A stretch of DNA of 64,000 nucleotides, from the NCBI RefSeq assembly GCF_020905375.1, contig NZ_JAJJBU010000019.1, forward strand, positions 1 through 64,000. The letters are read 5' to 3'. Origin of the DNA: Arthrobacter cryoconiti. Its GTDB lineage: Bacteria > Actinomycetota > Actinomycetes > Actinomycetales > Micrococcaceae. The notes under the pieces were generated by a model. That model saw only the letters and a program-made list of their open reading frames with translations. It had not been told where the DNA came from and did not search any database. Below are positions 1 through 52,031 of the stretch, in pieces (the stretch's first letter is position 1; each line of letters starts with the position of its first letter). The position numbers and the translations under genes are program-made.

Positions 1-266
1 GCCACAACAGTTACCACCACGCCACCCCACGCACACCCAAAACACTCTAAACACCCAAAAAGCCCCAAATACAGGCCAACAAGAGGGTATTTCCTGCAAA
101 TTTTCACCCATCCTGAGTAATTCAACCGGACCGGCCGTCAGGTTCGAATGCTGGCGGAATATGTTTGGTGCAGCGAGCCGTATCGGCTGTTGGCAGCTAG
201 CTGCTCAACGACTCGTTAGCATGGGCAGCAATGCAAGTAGTCAGTGCTAGTAGCTTGGAAGCTCCA

Positions 267-4404: not shown

Positions 4405-7400
4405 TCAGTCAGTCGCTGCGCGTCGGCCGCGGATCTTCGGAATGGCGCCCGTAGTCCAGTCCTGAAATTCAGGTTTGGAATCCGAAGTGTGGGGGTTTGC
4501 CTCCGAATCGGAGCTGGAGCCAGAATCAGTGCCAGTGCTATCCGGCGCGGTTGGCTTGTGGACCACTTTGAGTGCCTTCATCAAATCATGTCGTTCCTTA
4601 CGCCCCTCTACAAGGCGGTACAAAACGGGGACCAGAATAAGAGTCAATAGCGTGGAGGAAATCAACCCACCTACGACGACCACGGCCAGCGGTTGCGAAA
4701 TGAATCCGCCACCACCCGTGACGCCCAGGGCCATGGGGGTCAGCGCAAAGATTGTAGCCAGCGCGGTCATAAGGATGGGACGAAGACGCTGGCGGGCACC
4801 ATGCTCGATCGCATCGGCAACGTTCATAGCGGGCCGGTCACCTGAGGGACGCCTGTATTGGTTGATGAGGTCAATGAGGACGATGGCATTGGTCACCACA
4901 ATCCCCACCAGCATCAGCATGCCGATCAGCGACGGAAGTCCCAAAGGAATGCCAGTAACCAGCAGCAGTGCAATGGCTCCTGTTGCGGCGAATGGAATGG
5001 AAACCAAGAGGATCAGCGGTTGGATCAGCGACTTGAACGCAGCCACCATGATGACATAAACAATTGCAATGGCGGCTAGCATCGCCAGTCCCAACTGCTG
5101 GAAAGACTCTGCCTGTTGTGTGGCAGCGCCGCCGAGGCTGGCAATGACGCCGGCGGGCAGTGTGGTTTCATCCAAACGTTTCTGGACATCCGCACTGAGC
5201 GAGCCCAGCGCATTCTCTTGAGGTGTCAGTGATACCGTCGCGGTGCGCTGCCCGTTGGAAGAAGTGAGCGTTAGCGGAGTATCCACCTGCTTGACAGTCG
5301 CCACCGAGGTTAGCGGAACCATCCCGGATGGTGTCGGGATCTGAGCCTCAGCCAAAGCGGCCACTGAATCAAAAGTGGTCCCAGCACCGACCAACACTTT
5401 GTAGTCTGTGGTGTCGATCCGCACAGTTCCTGCGGGGATGGGACTGACGGTAGCTGCGAGCATTCCAGTGATCTGCGATTCATCCAGCCCAGCGGCCACT
5501 GCCTTGGCCCTGTCGACGCTGACCTGCACGACAGGCTGAGCGGAGGAGAGGTTGCTATTCACGGACTGTGCGCCGGGGAGACCTGTCATAGCTTTGACCA
5601 GGAGATCGGAGGCCTGCTGGAGTTCGGCACCCGTGCTTGCCTTGACGGTGATATCCACGGTGCTGGAAGTGCCAAAGCCGCCGCCAGAAGCACCAAGCGA
5701 AATGTTTCCTGCATCCTTGATGGTTGCAATTTCTGTTCGCACAGTGTCTTGGAGTTTGACCTGATCAGCATCTGGATTGGTGATGACCTGGAAAGTAGCT
5801 TTTGATGCTCCGGAAGCTAACAATGCGGAGAAACCACTGGAACTGTTGCCGATGGTGACCTGTACATCCCGGACACCGTCAATGGCTGAGAGTTTAGTCT
5901 CCACCTTTTTGGCGGCCGCGTTGGTCACATCCAGGCTGGTACCCGGAGGCATGGACTGATTGACGCTCAGACTGTTTTGTCCGGTGTTACCAAGTAGGTT
6001 CGTGGGCAGAAGGGGTGTCATGGCCAGTGTGGCGCCCAAAACAATAACACCGGCTAGCAGCGTATAAAACGGATGTTTTTGGGTTTTGGCCAATATGGGA
6101 AGGTAGCCGCGTTGCAGCCAGGATTTGCGTTCCTTTTCTTCCACAACGCGTAGGAGAGCCTGCCCACTTAGGACAGCGCCGCCGTCGTCCGTGTGGACCG
6201 TCTGCTTGAGGAACCAGTAGGCCAGCACAGGTACGATCGTCAGCGAAACTAGGAGGGAAGCCACTAATGCAAACGTCACCGTCAGGGCAAACGGTCGGAA
6301 CAGTTCGCCGGCAAGGCTCCCCACAAAGGCGATGGGCAAGAATACGGCCACCGTGGTCAAGGTAGACGCCGTCACAGCTCCGGCTACCTCCCGGACTGCG
6401 GAGAGAATGGCCGCTTTCTTATCTTCGCCGTAGCCCATGTGCCGCTTGATGTTCTCAATGACCACAATGGAATCGTCCACCACCCGCCCAATGGCTATGG
6501 TCAACGCACCCAAGGTCAAGATGTTCAGCGAATACCCGGTGGCCCACAGTCCAATGAAAGTCACGAGGAGTGACAACGGGATGGAGATGGCAGTCACCAG
6601 AGTAGACCGGAGCGAGAGTAGGAAAATCAGGATCACCACGACGGCGAAGCCCAGTCCCAGCAGACCCTCCACCGTGAGATCGTGAATGGACTTTTCAATG
6701 AAGGGTGCCTGGTCCAAGACGGTCGTGAACTTGGTGTTATGGCCTAGTGAGGCTTCGATTTGGGGCAGCTGGGCGTTGATCTCTTTGGAGAGAGAAACCG
6801 TGTCCGCCGCAGGCTTTTTGGTGACCGATAAGGCAAGAGTGGCGACACCGTTAGTTCGCGTGATTGACGTGGTGGGATCGTCAGCGAGTGCCACGCTGGC
6901 CACGGAAGCGATGGTGGGTGCAGGGCCCTTGTTGCTTCCGGCCAGTGGCAGGGCGGACACGCTTTCTAGCGAATCCACGGGGCTGCCAGCCTGGATGGAA
7001 AGGGTCAGCCCATCATTGCTCAGCGTTCCCACAGGGATAAGCGAACCGTTGTTTTTCAAAGCAGAAGTGATAGATCCAGTGTTGACGCCCGCGGCCGCCA
7101 TTTTCGCTGGATCCGGCATAATCGCGATGTGCTGGGAATTGGCACCAGTCACGTCAGCGCTGCGTACGCCGTCGATCTTCATCAGTTTCGGCACTGCCAA
7201 GCGCTGCAAATCAGTGTTCAGCGCGGCCAGATCTTGGTCGGAAGAGACGGCAAGGAAGACAATCGGAAAGTCGGCGATACTTCCAGCAATGGGCTGAGGT
7301 TGGACTCCTGAGGGCAGCTGGGCGCTGACATTGGAGATGGCACGGTCAATCTGATTCCGTGCACGGTCCAGATTGGTGCCGTACGTGAAGGCGAGATTGA

Positions 7401-45682: not shown

Positions 45683-45714
45683 AAGGCCGGAAACCTACGG
45701 GATTCCGGCCTTTT
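45683..45714 (+). terminator. Rho-independent terminator after tRNA-Glu
   Basis: AAGGCCGGAA ... TTCCGGCCTT is a perfect 10-bp stem ending in TTTT, 6 nt after the tRNA. Confidence 0.9.
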
Positions 45715-45772
45715 GCATGCCCCCTGCGCGCGCTTGGGCGAGTATTCTCCGAGGGACTGGCATGATGAAGCT

Positions 45773-47563
45773 GTGAACCCGATTGAATCGCCCAAAGCCG
45801 CGGACGACGGCGTCGCCTCCTTTGCGCAAGAAGAAGCCGTTGCGCTGCTGGAACTTGTCCGCGACACCTTGGATTCTCTTCAACTCCCACTTGAACTTCC
45901 CGGAGCCGGTGAAGCCCGGAAAATATCCCGCGCCGCCGTTGGCCAATTGGACGACTACATTTTGCCACGGCACCGCAGTTTGGATGCGCCGCTGCTAGCC
46001 GTTGTGGGTGGCTCCACAGGAGCTGGTAAATCAACACTGGTGAATGCCTTAGCGGGCCACCCTGTGACCCGAGCCGGGGCCATCCGCCCCACCACTCGCC
46101 AACCTATCCTCCTCCACAACCCCGTGGATGCACACTGGTTCACCTCTACGCGCGTGCTGCCCACCCTTGCTCGCGTTAGTGGCTCGCTGGAGGGAGGCAA
46201 GACGCCAGCTAACCGGGCCGGCGCCACGCCGGATGCCACAGCCATGGGCTCGCTAGTGTTGGTGTCTGATCCTGCCATTCCGCCCGGCGTCGCACTTCTG
46301 GATGCTCCGGACGTCGATTCCGTGGCAAAAGAGAATCGCGAGCTTGCCACAACGTTGCTGGCGGCGGCGGATCTTTGGCTATTTGTCACTACGGCTAATC
46401 GGTACGCCGATGCTCTCCCCTGGAATCTGCTGGTGGATGCAGCAGGCCGGGACATCCTCGTGGCTGTGGTTTTGGACCGAGTTCCGGCTGGTGCGCAAGA
46501 GGAAATTAGCGCTGACTTGCGTGCCATGCTCTCCAGAGAAGGCCTGTCCGACTCCAGACTATTTGTTGTCCAAGAGGCGAAACTTGACGAGCTTGGGATG
46601 CTGCCTGCCGCTAGCGTAGCGCCGATCGTTGACTGGCTGGCAGGGATTGCCGCAGATTCGGCAGGGCGCAGTGAGATTGCCCGGCGCACCCTCCGGGGGG
46701 CGGTACGGATTCTTTCCGCAAAGGTTGAGGTGGTGGCTCACGCAGCACGGGAGCAAGACGCTGCCCGCAGACAGCTCGCAGAGGATGTTAGAGCGTCATA
46801 TGCGGCCGCGACGGTTCGCATCGGCAAAGCCACCAGCGACGGCACACTGCTGCGTGGCGAAGTGCTTTCCCGTTGGCAGGATTTTGTTGGAACCGGAGAT
46901 CTCTTCAGGGCCGTGGAAAGTGGGATCGGGCGTGTCCGGGACAGAATCGGTGCCTTCTTCAAGGGAGTCCCACCGCCAGCAGTAAAAGTTGAAACAGCCA
47001 TAGAAACGGGTTTGCTGGCGGTCATCGTGGACCAGGCTGCACGTGCGGCAGAAGACGCTGACCAACGCTGGCGTGCAAACCCGGCCGGCCGCGCTCTGCT
47101 CGGCGTCGACGACCTCGCGGGGGTCAGCCCGGAATTCCCGGAAGAAGTAGCCACGCAAATCCGCGCCTGGCAAGGCGATGTGCTGGCTCTGATACGGGGA
47201 GAAGGTGCAGCAAAACGTTCCCAAGCTCGCTGGCTGTCTTTCGGTGTCAACGGACTGGGTGTCATCTTGATGATTGTCGTCTTTTCACTGACCGGAGGGT
47301 TGACAGGCGCCGAGATCGGCATCGCGGGAGGTAGCGCGGTGGTGGGTCAAAAGTTGCTTGAAGCAGTGTTTGGCGAAGACGCTGTGCGGCGTTTGGTCAA
47401 AGAAGTCCGCCTCTCACTGCAAAAGCGTTGTGCAACCCTTTTGGAGCGGCAGCAGATAAGGTTCTTGGAACGAATTATGCTGCCGCCAGAAGGTGCACAA
47501 TCGCTGGAGGACCGCCTGGACGCTCAGGCGCTGCGACTGTCAGCTTTGGGGGCTGGCGCATGA
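45773..47563 (+). CDS. Membrane-anchored dynamin-like GTPase, first of a pair
   Basis: About 596 residues. P-loop GGSTGAGKSTLVNALAG (79-95), G2-like RPTTRQPILLHN, G3 LLDAPDVDSVAKENRELA (DxPD, resembling DxxG), and a weak G4 VVLDRVPAGA rather than NKxD. Long helical segments flank the GTPase domain, and the C-terminal part has paired hydrophobic helices (VNGLGVILMIVVFSLTGGLTGAEIGIAGGSAVVGQKLLEAVFG) typical of membrane-tethered dynamin-like or YfjP-type GTPases. The GTG at 45773 is taken as start; it lacks a good ribosome site. ATGA overlap with the next GTPase gene shows coupling. Confidence 0.82.
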   Translation: MNPIESPKAADDGVASFAQEEAVALLELVRDTLDSLQLPLELPGAGEARKISRAAVGQLDDYILPRHRSLDAPLLAVVGGSTGAGKSTLVNALAGHPVTRAGAIRPTTRQPILLHNPVDAHWFTSTRVLPTLARVSGSLEGGKTPANRAGATPDATAMGSLVLVSDPAIPPGVALLDAPDVDSVAKENRELATTLLAAADLWLFVTTANRYADALPWNLLVDAAGRDILVAVVLDRVPAGAQEEISADLRAMLSREGLSDSRLFVVQEAKLDELGMLPAASVAPIVDWLAGIAADSAGRSEIARRTLRGAVRILSAKVEVVAHAAREQDAARRQLAEDVRASYAAATVRIGKATSDGTLLRGEVLSRWQDFVGTGDLFRAVESGIGRVRDRIGAFFKGVPPPAVKVETAIETGLLAVIVDQAARAAEDADQRWRANPAGRALLGVDDLAGVSPEFPEEVATQIRAWQGDVLALIRGEGAAKRSQARWLSFGVNGLGVILMIVVFSLTGGLTGAEIGIAGGSAVVGQKLLEAVFGEDAVRRLVKEVRLSLQKRCATLLERQQIRFLERIMLPPEGAQSLEDRLDAQALRLSALGAGA

Positions 47564-49173
47564 GTCGGCATCGGGATATTCGGGTTGAATCTGCGCTGAC
47601 ACTCCGAATGGAGGCACTGAACCGCGCTCGAGAACTTGGAGAGGGGCGCCTGGAGGACGCTGCGCTCCAAGAAGTTTACGATGTTCTTGCCCGGGCCGCT
47701 ACGCGGCGTTCGTTGAGTGGCGAACACACTGTGGTGGGTTTTTTTGGGGCCACCGGTAGCGGGAAGTCCTCCCTTTTCAATGCTGTGACGGGTACTGATG
47801 TGGCACGGGTTGCCGTGCGACGGCCCACCACCAGCGAGCCACTTGCGTTGGTATGGGACCCTGTTGGAAGCTCCCCGCTTTTGGATTGGCTCCAGATTGC
47901 CGATCGCCGAGAGGGCCAGCCTGTACCCGGATTGACCAATGGTGGCGCCGGGTTGATACTTCTGGACCTGCCCGACTTTGATTCTGTGCAACGCTCCCAC
48001 CGGGAAACCGTGGAGCGGCTAGCAGGCCAAGTAGACGTACTGGTATGGGTTGTGGACCCACAAAAGTATGCAGATGCCGCCATCCACAATGACTTCATTC
48101 GCCCATTTTGCGCCCATGAGAGCGTCACGCTGGTGGTGCTGAACCAGGTGGATAAGCTGGCGCCATCGGAAGTGCCAGCCGTGGTGGAATCATTGGCCCA
48201 GATTCTGGCGAGTGATGGGTTAGCCAAAGCGTCAGTACTAACGGTTTCGGCAGTGACTGGGGTAGGAGTGGATGATCTGCGGGGCCGGATCGCCGAAGTC
48301 GTCAAGGCCAAAGTGGCCCAATCAGCCCGGCTTGCGGCAGACGTAGCAGTCGCTGCAGGGCGGCTCTCCGAGGCAGCAGGCGTGGGTACTCCGGCAGGCG
48401 TTCACCAGCAGAACCGTCAAGCGATGACAGCTGGGTTGGCGCAGGCTACCCACATTGAAACCGTGGTTTCCGCAGTCCGTGCGTCCCACCGCCTGGACGC
48501 ATCCCGCCATACCGGATGGCCGGTGACCCGGTGGATGTCACGGTTCCGGAAGGATCCGCTGCGTCGTCTGCGGCTCAAGCATGAGGCGGACGCGGGCCTC
48601 AAGCGGACCTCGTTGCCGCCCGCCGTTGCTGCGGAGTCTGCGCAGCTGGATTCGGCGGTTCGGGCTTTTGGTGATGCTGCCAGCGCTGGTTCTTCGGGTC
48701 CATGGCACGCGTCAATCCGGACAGCGGCCCGTTCGAATAGGGAGTCGCTACCGGACGCCCTGGATGTAGCCGTGGCGTCTTGCGATCTTAAAGCGAACGC
48801 CGGTCCTTGGTGGTGGCCGGTTTTTTCCATACTCCAATGGTTAGCCCTGTTGGTGGCGGTCGGCGGCCTAATCTGGCTGGGCGTCCTGACCATTTTGGGA
48901 TATCTCCAACTTCCTGTCCCCGACGTGCCGAAGACGCAGGGCTGGCCGCTGCCCACACTGATGCTCGTGACGGGCGTCGTTCTGGGCATCTTTTTAGCTG
49001 TGACTGCCAAGTTCTTTGCCGCAGCCGGTGCCAGAGGCAGGGCAAAGATGGCGAGGCGAAGACTTTTGCACAGTATTGAGGCCGTCGGTGAATCTTTGGT
49101 GGTAGAGCCGACGAGGACAGAAGTTGCCCGGTGCCTGGACTTTCAGCAAGCTCTGGCCCTCGCCGGCCGTTGA
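47560..49173 (+). CDS. Membrane-anchored GTPase, second of a pair (YfjP-like)
   Basis: A 537-residue Era/TrmE-type GTPase: P-loop GFFGATGSGKSSLFNAVTG (60-78), RPTTSEP, G3 LLDLPDFDS, G4 VVLNQVDKL (a proper NQxD), and a G5-like LTVSAVTGVGVDDL. The C-terminal region has two membrane helices (WWPVFSILQWLALLVAVGGLIWLGVLTILGYL and TLMLVTGVVLGIFLAV) followed by an amphipathic basic tail. Starts at ATG 47560 overlapping the previous stop. Both proteins together look like a two-GTPase membrane machine, comparable in organisation to tandem dynamin-like pairs; no function is proven for this family. Confidence 0.85.
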   Translation: MSRHRDIRVESALTLRMEALNRARELGEGRLEDAALQEVYDVLARAATRRSLSGEHTVVGFFGATGSGKSSLFNAVTGTDVARVAVRRPTTSEPLALVWDPVGSSPLLDWLQIADRREGQPVPGLTNGGAGLILLDLPDFDSVQRSHRETVERLAGQVDVLVWVVDPQKYADAAIHNDFIRPFCAHESVTLVVLNQVDKLAPSEVPAVVESLAQILASDGLAKASVLTVSAVTGVGVDDLRGRIAEVVKAKVAQSARLAADVAVAAGRLSEAAGVGTPAGVHQQNRQAMTAGLAQATHIETVVSAVRASHRLDASRHTGWPVTRWMSRFRKDPLRRLRLKHEADAGLKRTSLPPAVAAESAQLDSAVRAFGDAASAGSSGPWHASIRTAARSNRESLPDALDVAVASCDLKANAGPWWWPVFSILQWLALLVAVGGLIWLGVLTILGYLQLPVPDVPKTQGWPLPTLMLVTGVVLGIFLAVTAKFFAAAGARGRAKMARRRLLHSIEAVGESLVVEPTRTEVARCLDFQQALALAGR

Positions 49174-49225: not shown

Positions 49226-49816
49226 TTATCCGTGTGTCCAGCAGCCCAAGATTGTGGTGGCGATCTGGTACGCGAAGTCTGTGCGCGGGATCGCGTCGGG
49301 ACCCACGACCTCTTTCATTTTAGTGGCGTCCACATGCAAGGACATCGAGTCTTTAGCGAAAACGACCTGACCTATAGGCGACTGGTATCCGGGGAGTCCC
49401 AGATTCGCAAGACCTACAATGGGGTTGGCACTGACTTTACTCGCCAGATCTTTGGCCCCCGCCTGTGCTTTCTTCAGACCCTCGAATACTTGGACGGAAA
49501 GCTGAAGATTACCTTCGGGCAACGTGTAGTTGCAGGAGAACACCGAGCCGTCCCAGCTTTGCGTGGTGGCGGGCTTGGATCCTAAACCGAGGATCTTTTG
49601 CACGTTGTCTTTTACTTCGTCAGAGCAGATCATGGCGGCCGCAGGCGGAACCTCTGCCGTCGATGTAGAGGACCCGGCGGAAGTGTTGACACCGGCTCCT
49701 TGACTTGCAGGAGCCGGAAGGGCTGCAGAGTCGGAGTTTGGGGTTCCGCCGGCGCATCCGCTCAGCAATAAGGCTGTTGCCGCCACGGCCGCCCATCGGG
49801 GGTATCGCGTGTTCAT
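49226..49816 (-). CDS. Lipoprotein, DUF3558-like
   Basis: A 196-residue secreted lipoprotein: signal peptide with lipobox ALLLSGC (Cys21), Ser/Pro/Ala-rich linker (about 25-60) and a domain with a probable disulfide pair (CSDEVKDNVQKILGLG ... DGSVFSCNYTLPEGN), a pattern of the DUF3558 lipoproteins of actinobacteria. A third Cys lies near the C-terminus (ILGCWTHG). It is the last of four minus-strand genes for exported proteins (51835 to 49226) but is separated from the cupredoxin gene by 43 nt and could have its own signal. Function unknown. Confidence 0.75.
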   Translation of the reverse strand: MNTRYPRWAAVAATALLLSGCAGGTPNSDSAALPAPASQGAGVNTSAGSSTSTAEVPPAAAMICSDEVKDNVQKILGLGSKPATTQSWDGSVFSCNYTLPEGNLQLSVQVFEGLKKAQAGAKDLASKVSANPIVGLANLGLPGYQSPIGQVVFAKDSMSLHVDATKMKEVVGPDAIPRTDFAYQIATTILGCWTHG

Positions 49817-49859
49817 CTTCTTGCCTTTCTGAACTGTGTGAGGGGGTGGGCGTAGTGCA

Positions 49860-50276
49860 TTAGCGCACTGTCAGCACTCCATGCATGCCGGCGTTTCCGT
49901 CACTATGATAGGAGTAGATGCCAGCTTTCATGGGTGCTGTGAATGTGACCACGGCACCGTGGGGCACAGAAACATTGAAGCTGCTGCCGTCGTCGGCCGT
50001 TACAGAATGAGTAGCAGTATCCATATTCATCACCGTGACTGTGGAGCCGGCCGACACTGGCACGGCATTGGTGTATTTACCGGATTCGATGTGAATCATG
50101 CTGGCCATGGCATCGCCCGATGCCGTCATAGCGGGCATGGGAACGCTCGACGCCGGCATCTGGGCGGGCTGGCTGGAATTGTCAGCACCTGCTACACCGC
50201 AACCGCCTAGGCCCAACATGGCCGCCAGCGCCACAACTGTGACGAAACTTCTTTGCTTGTTCATTGTCTGTCCCAT
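49860..50276 (-). CDS. Degenerate cupredoxin-like lipoprotein
   Basis: A 138-residue lipoprotein (lipobox LGGC, Cys26) with a Met-rich linker (QMPASSVPMPAMTASGDAMASM) and a plastocyanin-like beta fold: TVTVMNMDTATHSVTADDGSSFNVSVPHG ... APMKAGIYSYHSDGNAGMHGVLTV. Compared with the canonical YxYHCxxHxxM motif, His90 and Met131 remain but the Cys is Ser125 and the second His is Asn128, so a blue type-1 copper site cannot form. It may bind Cu(I) through Met/His instead, or act structurally. The start could also be M5 (50264). Located between the sortase and the last lipoprotein. Confidence 0.78.
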   Translation of the reverse strand: MGQTMNKQRSFVTVVALAAMLGLGGCGVAGADNSSQPAQMPASSVPMPAMTASGDAMASMIHIESGKYTNAVPVSAGSTVTVMNMDTATHSVTADDGSSFNVSVPHGAVVTFTAPMKAGIYSYHSDGNAGMHGVLTVR

Positions 50277-50315
50277 CCAAAAGTTGTTTTTCGGCGGGCT
50301 GGAGCCCGTGTCAGG

Positions 50316-51026
50316 CTAAAGTGCGTGGCTAGAAATCAGATGGCCGAAGACGACGGTATTTTTCTTGAACTCACCGGAGGCGGGATCGTAACCATCACAG
50401 GTGATAAGCCGGATTTCAGCACGGTTGGTATTGCCGTAGATGTCAAGCGTAGGGAAGGTTGCTTTGAGGACTTCTGAGAGCTTGTCCACTTCAAATACGG
50501 CAACGGTGTTGTCGGCGCGTACGACCGAGAATTGCTGTCCCGGCTTCATCTCGTGCAAACGGTAAAAGATGCCAATGTTGGAGGATTCGGTATTGACATG
50601 ACCCAAAATCACTGACGGTCCTAGCTGACCTGGGGTCGGTGAATACTTGTACCATCCGCCCGGATCACCCTGCTTGACCCCAGGTATTTCCATACTGCCA
50701 TCCGCTGCTTGGCCCAGCGGGACCAATGAGATATTGATTCCGACGTCGGGTGCCTGCAAGCTGACAGGATCCGACGCTTCCAAAATAGGACCCGTGGTTG
50801 CTGGTTGGGCAGGTAGTACAGGTATAGGAGCGGCAGGGGATGTGGTGGGTGCCGCTGAGATACTGGGCGTTGCTACGGCTGACGATTGGACTGCCGCAGG
50901 AGCAGCGGCTGCATTCGACTGGTCTTGGGGGGCGCAGGCGGTGGTGCCGAACGCGATACTGGTAAGTAGGACGCCGGCCGCCGCGGATGCAGCAAGGCGC
51001 CCGCGGCGACTGGTGTTCTTATTCAT
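50316..51026 (-). CDS. Class F-like sortase
   Basis: A 236-residue extracytoplasmic transpeptidase. An N-terminal signal/anchor with a lipobox-like FGTTAC (Cys31) is followed by an Ala/Pro/Ser linker and a sortase domain starting ISLVPLGQAADGSMEIP. Catalytic His143 is in VILGHVN and Cys210 in IRLITCDGYDPASGEF; where class F enzymes usually have Arg (Y-R-D-N) this protein reads F-K-K-N, with Lys221 aligned to the Arg. Sortases cleave a C-terminal signal and link the protein to a nucleophile such as lipid II. The CHRD gene directly upstream (17-nt gap) encodes the likely substrate. Confidence 0.85.
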   Translation of the reverse strand: MNKNTSRRGRLAASAAAGVLLTSIAFGTTACAPQDQSNAAAAPAAVQSSAVATPSISAAPTTSPAAPIPVLPAQPATTGPILEASDPVSLQAPDVGINISLVPLGQAADGSMEIPGVKQGDPGGWYKYSPTPGQLGPSVILGHVNTESSNIGIFYRLHEMKPGQQFSVVRADNTVAVFEVDKLSEVLKATFPTLDIYGNTNRAEIRLITCDGYDPASGEFKKNTVVFGHLISSHAL

Positions 51027-51043
51027 GTGAAATCAGACCGCCG

Positions 51044-51835
51044 TTAGTTCTCTACGGTCTTCTTGCGGCGAAGAGCCACAAACGCACCGATTGCTAGGAC
51101 AAGCGCACCGGATCCGGCCATCAGGCCAAGCTCAGGTGACGTGCTGGTGCTTGTCTGAGCAACTGCCTGAGTTACTCCTGTGTCAGGAGCTCCACCAGGA
51201 ACAGCGCTCATCTGAGATGCAACCAAGGTCCCACACAGTGCGGGTGAGGTAGCAGCCAGCGGCAAGGAGGGTACCAAGTCGCTAGGTGCCTTTGCAGCTT
51301 CCGGTGAAAGTGTCGCCGGATCAAGACCGTGGACCACAACTACTGCGGTACCGGCCTTCAATGCCGTGATGGTGGCGGCGTTCATCGTGAAGGTGCGGTC
51401 GTACTTGTAAGCGGCACCCATGCCGCCTACTTTCAGATCCAATGCAGCTTTGTCGCTCGTGTCACCACTGGAAGAGAGTGTGGTGCCGATCTTTCCGTAG
51501 GCTGCTCCACCTTCGGTGGTGCTAATGACGCCATCTTTGTTGGCATCTGCGCCGGGGGCGGGGCAGGTGCCCATACCCTCGATGTGGATGTGCTGGACGT
51601 GGGGATATGCTGCATCATTGAAGGTTGCGGCAAGGCCACTGACGTTCTCGGTAACGTGTGCCTGATCCCCTGTCAGGGAGATCATGACGCTACCAGTCGC
51701 GCCGCTGCCATTGATGGCGCCCAAGTTGGCCTGGTAGGACGTGGTGCCACCATCGGCCATGGCCCCACCAGCGGAAAGTGAAACGGCGGCTAGTGCGAGC
51801 ACTGGCGCAATCAGGAAAGCGGATTTCTTATTCAT
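51044..51835 (-). CDS. CHRD-domain surface protein with EF-hand loop and putative sorting signal
   Basis: A 263-residue exported protein: signal peptide (residues 1-27), CHRD domain with YPHVQHIHIEGMGTC (79-91) and AVVVVHGLDPATLS (164-177), two lone Cys (91, 201) that could bridge, a canonical EF-hand-type loop DANKDGVISTTE (97-108), then APDTG (216-220), a hydrophilic spacer, a TM helix (about 237-255) and RRKK tail. APDTG-spacer-TM-basic resembles a sorting signal, though LPxTG motifs normally abut the helix. CHRD domains are found in secreted proteins of uncertain role. First gene of the surface cluster. Confidence 0.82.
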   Translation of the reverse strand: MNKKSAFLIAPVLALAAVSLSAGGAMADGGTTSYQANLGAINGSGATGSVMISLTGDQAHVTENVSGLAATFNDAAYPHVQHIHIEGMGTCPAPGADANKDGVISTTEGGAAYGKIGTTLSSSGDTSDKAALDLKVGGMGAAYKYDRTFTMNAATITALKAGTAVVVVHGLDPATLSPEAAKAPSDLVPSLPLAATSPALCGTLVASQMSAVPGGAPDTGVTQAVAQTSTSTSPELGLMAGSGALVLAIGAFVALRRKKTVEN

Positions 51836-52031
51836 CAGAAAATTCTCCTCATCTATGTAACGTTCCCTTGTCGGGGCGTCGGATATGGTTCGGAGCGCTC
51901 ATCGGTACGGATTGGTCAAAATGAAAATATCCTGAGTTTTTTCTGAAAAATGTTTGTGAAGGGCCATAAAAAGAGCAGATTCAGCGTGAAATTCGACACA
52001 GCGGAATTCGAGCGTGTGATGCACGGACTCT

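Follow-up and report, generated by a model that had tools for sequence, protein, structure and literature searches.

Among described enzymes, those of class F, with Cutibacterium acnes SrtF and the curated NCBIfam model NF033748, are the best-matching class for the sortase considered here. In the part of one account drawn on, C. acnes SrtF is said to use LPXTG and all sortases to use His-Cys-Arg (PMC13257024), and a 2026 paper, in the sections cited here, says that it is unknown what class F sortases do physiologically (PMC13251363). According to those sections, two genes for proteins with a transmembrane (TM) tail adjoin class F sortase genes in Actinoplanes missouriensis (srtF1/AMIS_11010 and srtF4/AMIS_36440); their products lack a classical pentapeptide and may, the authors suggest, be substrates, and for want of a known pentapeptide they were set aside and not analysed there. 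A strain without any of the four class F sortases showed no phenotype (PMC13251363). The CHRD domains of chordin, as far as the cited part of their structural description extends, were solved as superoxide dismutase (SOD)-like, with no metal visible (PMC13382577).

Like those two A. missouriensis loci, the Arthrobacter cryoconiti locus described here joins a class F-type sortase to a TM-tail protein, and the sortase most likely fixes just this one neighbouring, putatively SOD-like protein to the cell wall. One sortase dedicated to one substrate is in itself an ordinary idea, but its form here is unusual: the signal is not LPXTG, the usual position lacks Arg, the enzyme probably carries a lipid anchor and the substrate appears to be SOD-like. 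The pairing is found in many related bacteria and suggests what a little-understood group of sortases recognises.

A cluster of four genes for exported proteins

The window, by which we mean the whole stretch of 64,000 nucleotides that was analysed, carries four consecutive minus-strand genes at 49226-51835 (Table 1), all with products predicted to be exported, just where an earlier note on this DNA had placed four such genes. Gaps calculated from the ORF coordinates are 17, 39 and 43 nt, going from the CHRD gene through the sortase and cupredoxin genes to the last lipoprotein gene, and the first confirms the spacing that the note had given. Under a PROSITE-like pattern the sortase, the cupredoxin-like protein and the last protein each have a lipobox, which the CHRD protein lacks. 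In Pfam and NCBIfam scans the sortase is identified firmly, the cupredoxin almost and the CHRD protein weakly.

Table 1. Features of the cluster, in coordinates of the window
Feature	Position	Strand	Basis
CHRD-like exported protein, predicted sortase substrate	51044..51835	-	263 aa ORF
His79 codon, first of the PHVQHIH His (H79, H82, H84)	51599..51601	-	57/57 homologues
EF-hand-like loop DANKDGVISTTE, residues 97-108	51512..51547	-	weak EF-hand_5; conserved D97, G102, E108
His169 codon	51329..51331	-	57/57 aligned homologues
Sorting motif P-G-G-A-P-D-T-G, residues 213-220	51176..51199	-	P213, G215, T219, G220 45/45
CHRD C-terminal hydrophobic segment and basic tail	51050..51127	-	predicted helix 237-262; hydropathy
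Class F-type sortase, predicted lipid-anchored	50316..51026	-	236 aa ORF; PF04203; NF033748; lipobox
Catalytic Cys210 codon (RLITC)	50397..50399	-	62/62 in alignment
Asn223 codon, SrtA Arg197 place	50358..50360	-	62/62 in alignment; aligned with SrtA Arg
Cupredoxin-like lipoprotein, type-1 Cu site incomplete	49860..50276	-	138 aa ORF; PF13473 25.6 bits vs cut-off 27
Lipoprotein, PknH-ectodomain-like fold	49226..49816	-	196 aa ORF; predicted model, 4esq match

Conservation of the pair and of the cassette

Three sets of sortase loci were compared, none of them a random sample: 60 high-scoring Micrococcaceae stretches (E <= 3.5e-39, often several per genome, the window included), the 30 best-scoring loci of the class, and 60 spread loci hand-picked across the class. 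Close homologues of the four genes, in the same order, are found in Arthrobacter psychrochitiniphilus (locus L033), a close relative with a sortase 67% identical to that of the window, and in A. wenxiniae (L034), while 0/8 flanking window genes have a good match in these two or in other Micrococcaceae loci. The cluster is therefore more than a chance arrangement, and it is the cassette that has been kept, not its genomic place.

A CHRD gene immediately precedes the sortase gene in 42 of the 60 selected Micrococcaceae loci and in 10/60 of those picked across the class. The cupredoxin gene is present in 6/60 Micrococcaceae loci and the last lipoprotein gene in 19/60, all of them CHRD loci (for the latter 19/42, against 0/18 of the others; p 2.4e-4), and in some of its 19 loci the last lipoprotein gene stands upstream of CHRD. 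The core is the CHRD gene followed by the class F-type sortase gene, with the two lipoprotein genes optional; a conserved four-gene unit was rejected as the core on these counts, and the four-gene order, a check of which the earlier note had proposed, is not generally conserved.

Of 148 genomes drawn from the family, 72 give a match to the sortase query (the weakest of these matches probably come from other classes of sortase) and 52 give one to the CHRD query; a by-eye comparison of the two lists finds a sortase match in 51 of those 52 CHRD-bearing genomes. The exception, genome G037, retains the CHRD gene with its motif, the cupredoxin and the lipoprotein, has no match to the sortase query, and gave no PF04203 match anywhere in the genome. 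This is the strongest fact against a dedicated pair, since it means that the CHRD protein may work without anchoring. In the locus in question (L248, G037:C8:23000-30043, positions 4892-7042) the genes run from the last lipoprotein through CHRD to the cupredoxin, and no sortase gene stands between CHRD and cupredoxin; a short frame at that place starts like the N-terminus of the sortase, as if the gene had been deleted.

The sorting signal

The CHRD protein ends in ...VPGGAPDTG..., a linker, a hydrophobic segment and RRKK; the linker has 16 residues, against a median TG-to-helix distance of 11. The residues P213, G215, T219 and G220 are invariant among Micrococcaceae CHRD homologues, and residue 218 is variable. 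Across the three sets, a TM-tail protein is encoded directly upstream of the sortase in 121 of the 150 class F loci (the other 29 have none by the filter applied and stand outside the 121). The pattern P-x-G-x3-[TS][GA] occurs in 93 of these 121 tails and the strict form, P-x-G-x-x-x-T-G, in 91, that is, in 52/53 upstream tails of the Micrococcaceae, 18/24 of the best-scoring class loci and 21/44 of the spread set; upstream tails read, for example, MPGGAPGTGV, MPEGGADTGV or PVGGADTGV. As a control, 10 of the 145 other TM-tail ORFs in the same loci match the signal, and nine of these ten are read as further substrates. The APDTG that had been taken for the signal is thus present, but as part of a longer one rather than as the whole of it. 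Anchoring of the LPXTG type, as given for C. acnes SrtF in contrast to the tail beside the window sortase, was rejected: the CHRD tail does not contain the motif, and LPxTG or LAxT[GA] occurs in just 3/121 upstream tails, reading LAQTA, LAATA and LAATA, all outside the motif described here.

Run against the window's own genome, a profile of these tails finds the CHRD tail with E 5e-18 and a next best match at 0.57. Because only the CHRD tail matches well in its genome, a dedicated sortase-CHRD pair is well supported, and the proposal that the enzyme serves this one protein gains from both the single match and the conservation of the pair. Tails of this kind are already modelled by the NCBIfam family GVDTG_CTERM (NF058571), which at E <= 1 picks up 17 of the 20 Micrococcaceae tails scanned, the strongest at 1.4e-10; the window tail falls below its cut-off (15.5-17.8 vs 29), and those of the relatives L178 and L065 are above it. 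The possibility raised earlier of an undescribed system is hence partly right: literature searches for CHRD domain plus sortase found no paper joining the two, and those for sortase plus GADTG found none either, but the tails themselves have a model.

The sortase and its missing arginine

The enzyme scores 59.9 bits against PF04203 (cut-off 26.6) and 156.6 bits (E 3.6e-46) against the class F model NF033748, below the cut-off of 166; it is nearest to class F by far, though uncertified by that model. His143 and Cys210 are conserved in 62/62 aligned sortases, and at the start of strand 8, in the place of the catalytic Arg, Asn223 is found in all 62. Asn occurs at C+11..15 (counted from the catalytic Cys) in 146/150 class F loci and Arg at C+13 in 0/150, so that the replacement is class-wide and not a lone loss. 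An Arg at C-4 is present in 127/150 (60/60 Micrococcaceae, 30/30 best-scoring, 37/60 spread), whereas class E-type controls have Thr at C-4 (28/28) and Arg at C+9 (28/28; three further control loci gave no match). The second sortase of the window's genome is class E-like, with the canonical Arg. As a substitute for the missing residue the Arg at C-4 is weakened as a candidate, because 23/60 spread sortases have neither it nor an Arg at C+13. Literature searches for sortase plus catalytic arginine plus asparagine found no paper, and the sortase sequence, searched against the PDB, had no match. Set against the His-Cys-Arg rule printed in the cited part of PMC13257024, an Asn where the catalytic Arg is expected would be a mechanistic question in itself.

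The sortase is probably lipid-anchored at its N-terminal Cys (Cys31 in the window), as judged from its lipobox behind a signal peptide. The lipobox is found in 39/60 Micrococcaceae, 1/30 best-scoring and 12/60 spread sortases, compared with 2.4% of shuffles; a looser pattern gives 50/60, 2/30 and 19/60.

Upstream partners extend beyond CHRD proteins. Four of four scanned Excalibur proteins are over the Pfam cut-off, and one more upstream protein (L132) had no match in a Pfam scan. A divergent branch of class F, in which the sortases lack the Arg at C-4 (L191-L195, L197, L201, L204, L206, L212) also has upstream TM-tail proteins; 4/4 of those scanned (L191, L195, L204, L206) are DUF4397 proteins, and the tails of the branch read approximately GVPAG or GVNSG, without the TG signal. 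The ratio of tails with the motif to tails without is 18:7 for sortases with Arg at C-4 and 3:16 for the others (Fisher p 2.7e-4); as the tree holds only one supported independent pair, the correlation is one at the level of clades and does not prove co-evolution.

It could be argued that the CHRD protein is a plain tail-anchored membrane protein beside a degenerate or inactive sortase, the two being kept together by common descent. The absent Arg, the retention of CHRD without a sortase in G037 and, in the cited part of PMC13251363, the lack of a phenotype in A. missouriensis after loss of its four class F sortases all fit such a reading, which we nevertheless consider unlikely, as His143 and Cys210 are conserved without exception, the P, G, T and G of the motif are kept in 45/45 homologues while adjoining residues vary, and the pairing recurs with unrelated substrates (CHRD, Excalibur, DUF4397).

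A generalisation that we offer tentatively, judging it slightly more apt to fail than to hold, is that actinobacterial class F sortases are one-substrate enzymes which serve the upstream neighbour through P-x-G-x-x-x-T-G, with Asn for Arg, usually an Arg four residues before the Cys, and in Micrococcaceae many of them lipid-anchored. If true, it would name the substrates, and the rule by which they are recognised, for enzymes whose role has been unclear so far, and the longer signal together with a strict neighbour rule would make substrates such as those set aside in A. missouriensis testable.

The CHRD protein

The CHRD model PF07452 matches the window protein below its cut-off (E 0.018, 16.4 bits vs 24.1), and among homologues L178 (32.1), L207 (30.4) and L164 (26.2) are over it, L156 (24.1) is at it, L171 and L173 are under it, and scans of L157 and L161 gave no match. 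The motif H79-x2-H82-x-H84 and the residues H169, C91 and C201 are invariant in 57/57 aligned homologues; with H79/H82/H84 matched by eye to SOD H43/H46/H48 and H169 to H120, the order H79, H82, H84, H169, C91, C201 is presumably that of SOD H43, H46, H48, H120, C57, C146.

An AlphaFold2 model built on three sequences is of low quality (pLDDT 44.8, pTM 0.47), with eight main strands. When this low-confidence model was used as a query, Foldseek listed Cu/Zn SOD in 46 of its top 50 rows (best E 1.6e-3) and 50/50 VIA-align rows had the SOD fold (best Z 8.5, 130 aligned, 3.8 A), among them Candida SOD5 (4n3t; Z 7.9, 119 aligned, 3.0 A). A CHRD profile search of PDB sequences returned no SOD and one unrelated chain (E 1.3), and hhalign against 11 Micrococcaceae SodC sequences gave a probability of 17% locally and 0.6% globally. 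The modelled domain appears to resemble Cu/Zn SOD in fold, a likeness supported in sequence by the agreeing order of the invariant His and Cys; chordin CHRD domains are SOD-like.

These matches, SOD5 included, and the three His and disulfide kept in 57/57 could be taken to mean that the protein is an active surface SOD or a relative of the copper-only enzymes. By position it shares with Cu/Zn SOD, copper-only SOD5 included, the three copper His and the disulfide, but a test for the PF00080 ligands finds three of the four Cu His and not the full set of four Cu and Zn ligands: no His occurs between C91 and H169, and the window protein lacks the bridging His (H63) and the zinc ligands. PF00080 itself matches only L164 and L173, below its cut-off (E 0.008 and 0.0058), and we regard an active enzyme as very improbable. 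In place of the SOD zinc region there is an EF-hand-like loop, to which EF-hand_5 matches weakly (E 0.2 in the window, 0.057 at best in the trio) and in which D97, G102 and E108 are kept in 45/45 homologues.

Alternatively, the CHRD protein could have a structural or adhesive part in the wall, its SOD-like fold and Ca2+ loop serving stability only and copper playing no role. Such a protein would agree with the chordin CHRD domains, which show no visible metal in the cited part of PMC13382577, with the Excalibur calcium-binding domain carried by other substrates of these sortases, and with the loss of ligands in the neighbouring cupredoxin; yet four His invariant in 57/57 go beyond what stability usually demands, and we hold this reading to be possible, though doubtful. 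Judging from the conserved ligands, we think of CHRD as a metal-binding wall protein rather than an active dismutase.

The two lipoproteins

The third gene scores 25.6 bits against Cupredoxin_1 (PF13473; cut-off 27), and of the type-1 His-Cys-His-Met ligands the Cys is replaced by Ser125 and one His by Asn128. A working type-1 copper site was therefore rejected for the window protein, and its redox chemistry is doubtful; the suggestion that the two lipoproteins are metal or redox partners thus loses ground as far as the cupredoxin is concerned. The full ligand set is present in the cupredoxins of L044, L049, L053 and L054.

The model of the last lipoprotein (pLDDT 76.3, core >90) aligns with the PknH ectodomain (4esq; Z 12.2, 123 aligned, 2.4 A), DIP2269 (Z 10.4, 124 aligned, 4.0 A) and TiME (Z 10.0, 122 aligned, 2.9 A). 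In its predicted fold it resembles the PknH sensor domain, at 16% identity, but it is lipid-anchored and has no kinase. A DUF3558 label was rejected, PF12079 scoring 14.4 against a cut-off of 34.1 and the PknH-ectodomain fold being the better match. In L040, L045 and L046 a degenerate cupredoxin-like segment is fused to the PknH-like domain in one protein, which links the third and fourth genes.

Proposed system

As a whole, we regard it as rather probable that a sortase dedicated to the CHRD protein, with two lipoproteins as accessories, displays this metal-binding protein on the wall. After export, the CHRD protein would stay in the membrane through its C-terminal helix. The sortase, of class F type and probably tethered through a lipidated N-terminal Cys, would cleave PGGAPDTG between T219 and G220 and link the CHRD domain to a precursor of the cell wall. 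We infer this cutting and wall attachment; gene order, its conservation, the motif, the catalytic His and Cys and the unique tail match are read directly from the genomes. Once displayed, the CHRD domain would bind Cu(I) at the three His and Ca2+ at the loop, without acting as a dismutase. The cupredoxin-like and PknH-sensor-like lipoproteins, because they are fused in three relatives, would probably form a binding or sensing set of partners at the membrane rather than an electron-transfer chain.

Surroundings of the cluster

The 196-base gap upstream of the CHRD gene (51836-52031) is the likely promoter region, although a scan of the cluster found no promoter and no sigma-70-like match in that gap, and a terminator scan gave no more hits than in shuffles. 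Two CHRD genes lie near one class F sortase in L171, L161 and L095. On the plus strand of the window, two neighbouring genes for dynamin-like GTPases (45713-47563 and 47428-49173) converge on the cluster, and since the listed frames overlap, the second probably starts later than listed.
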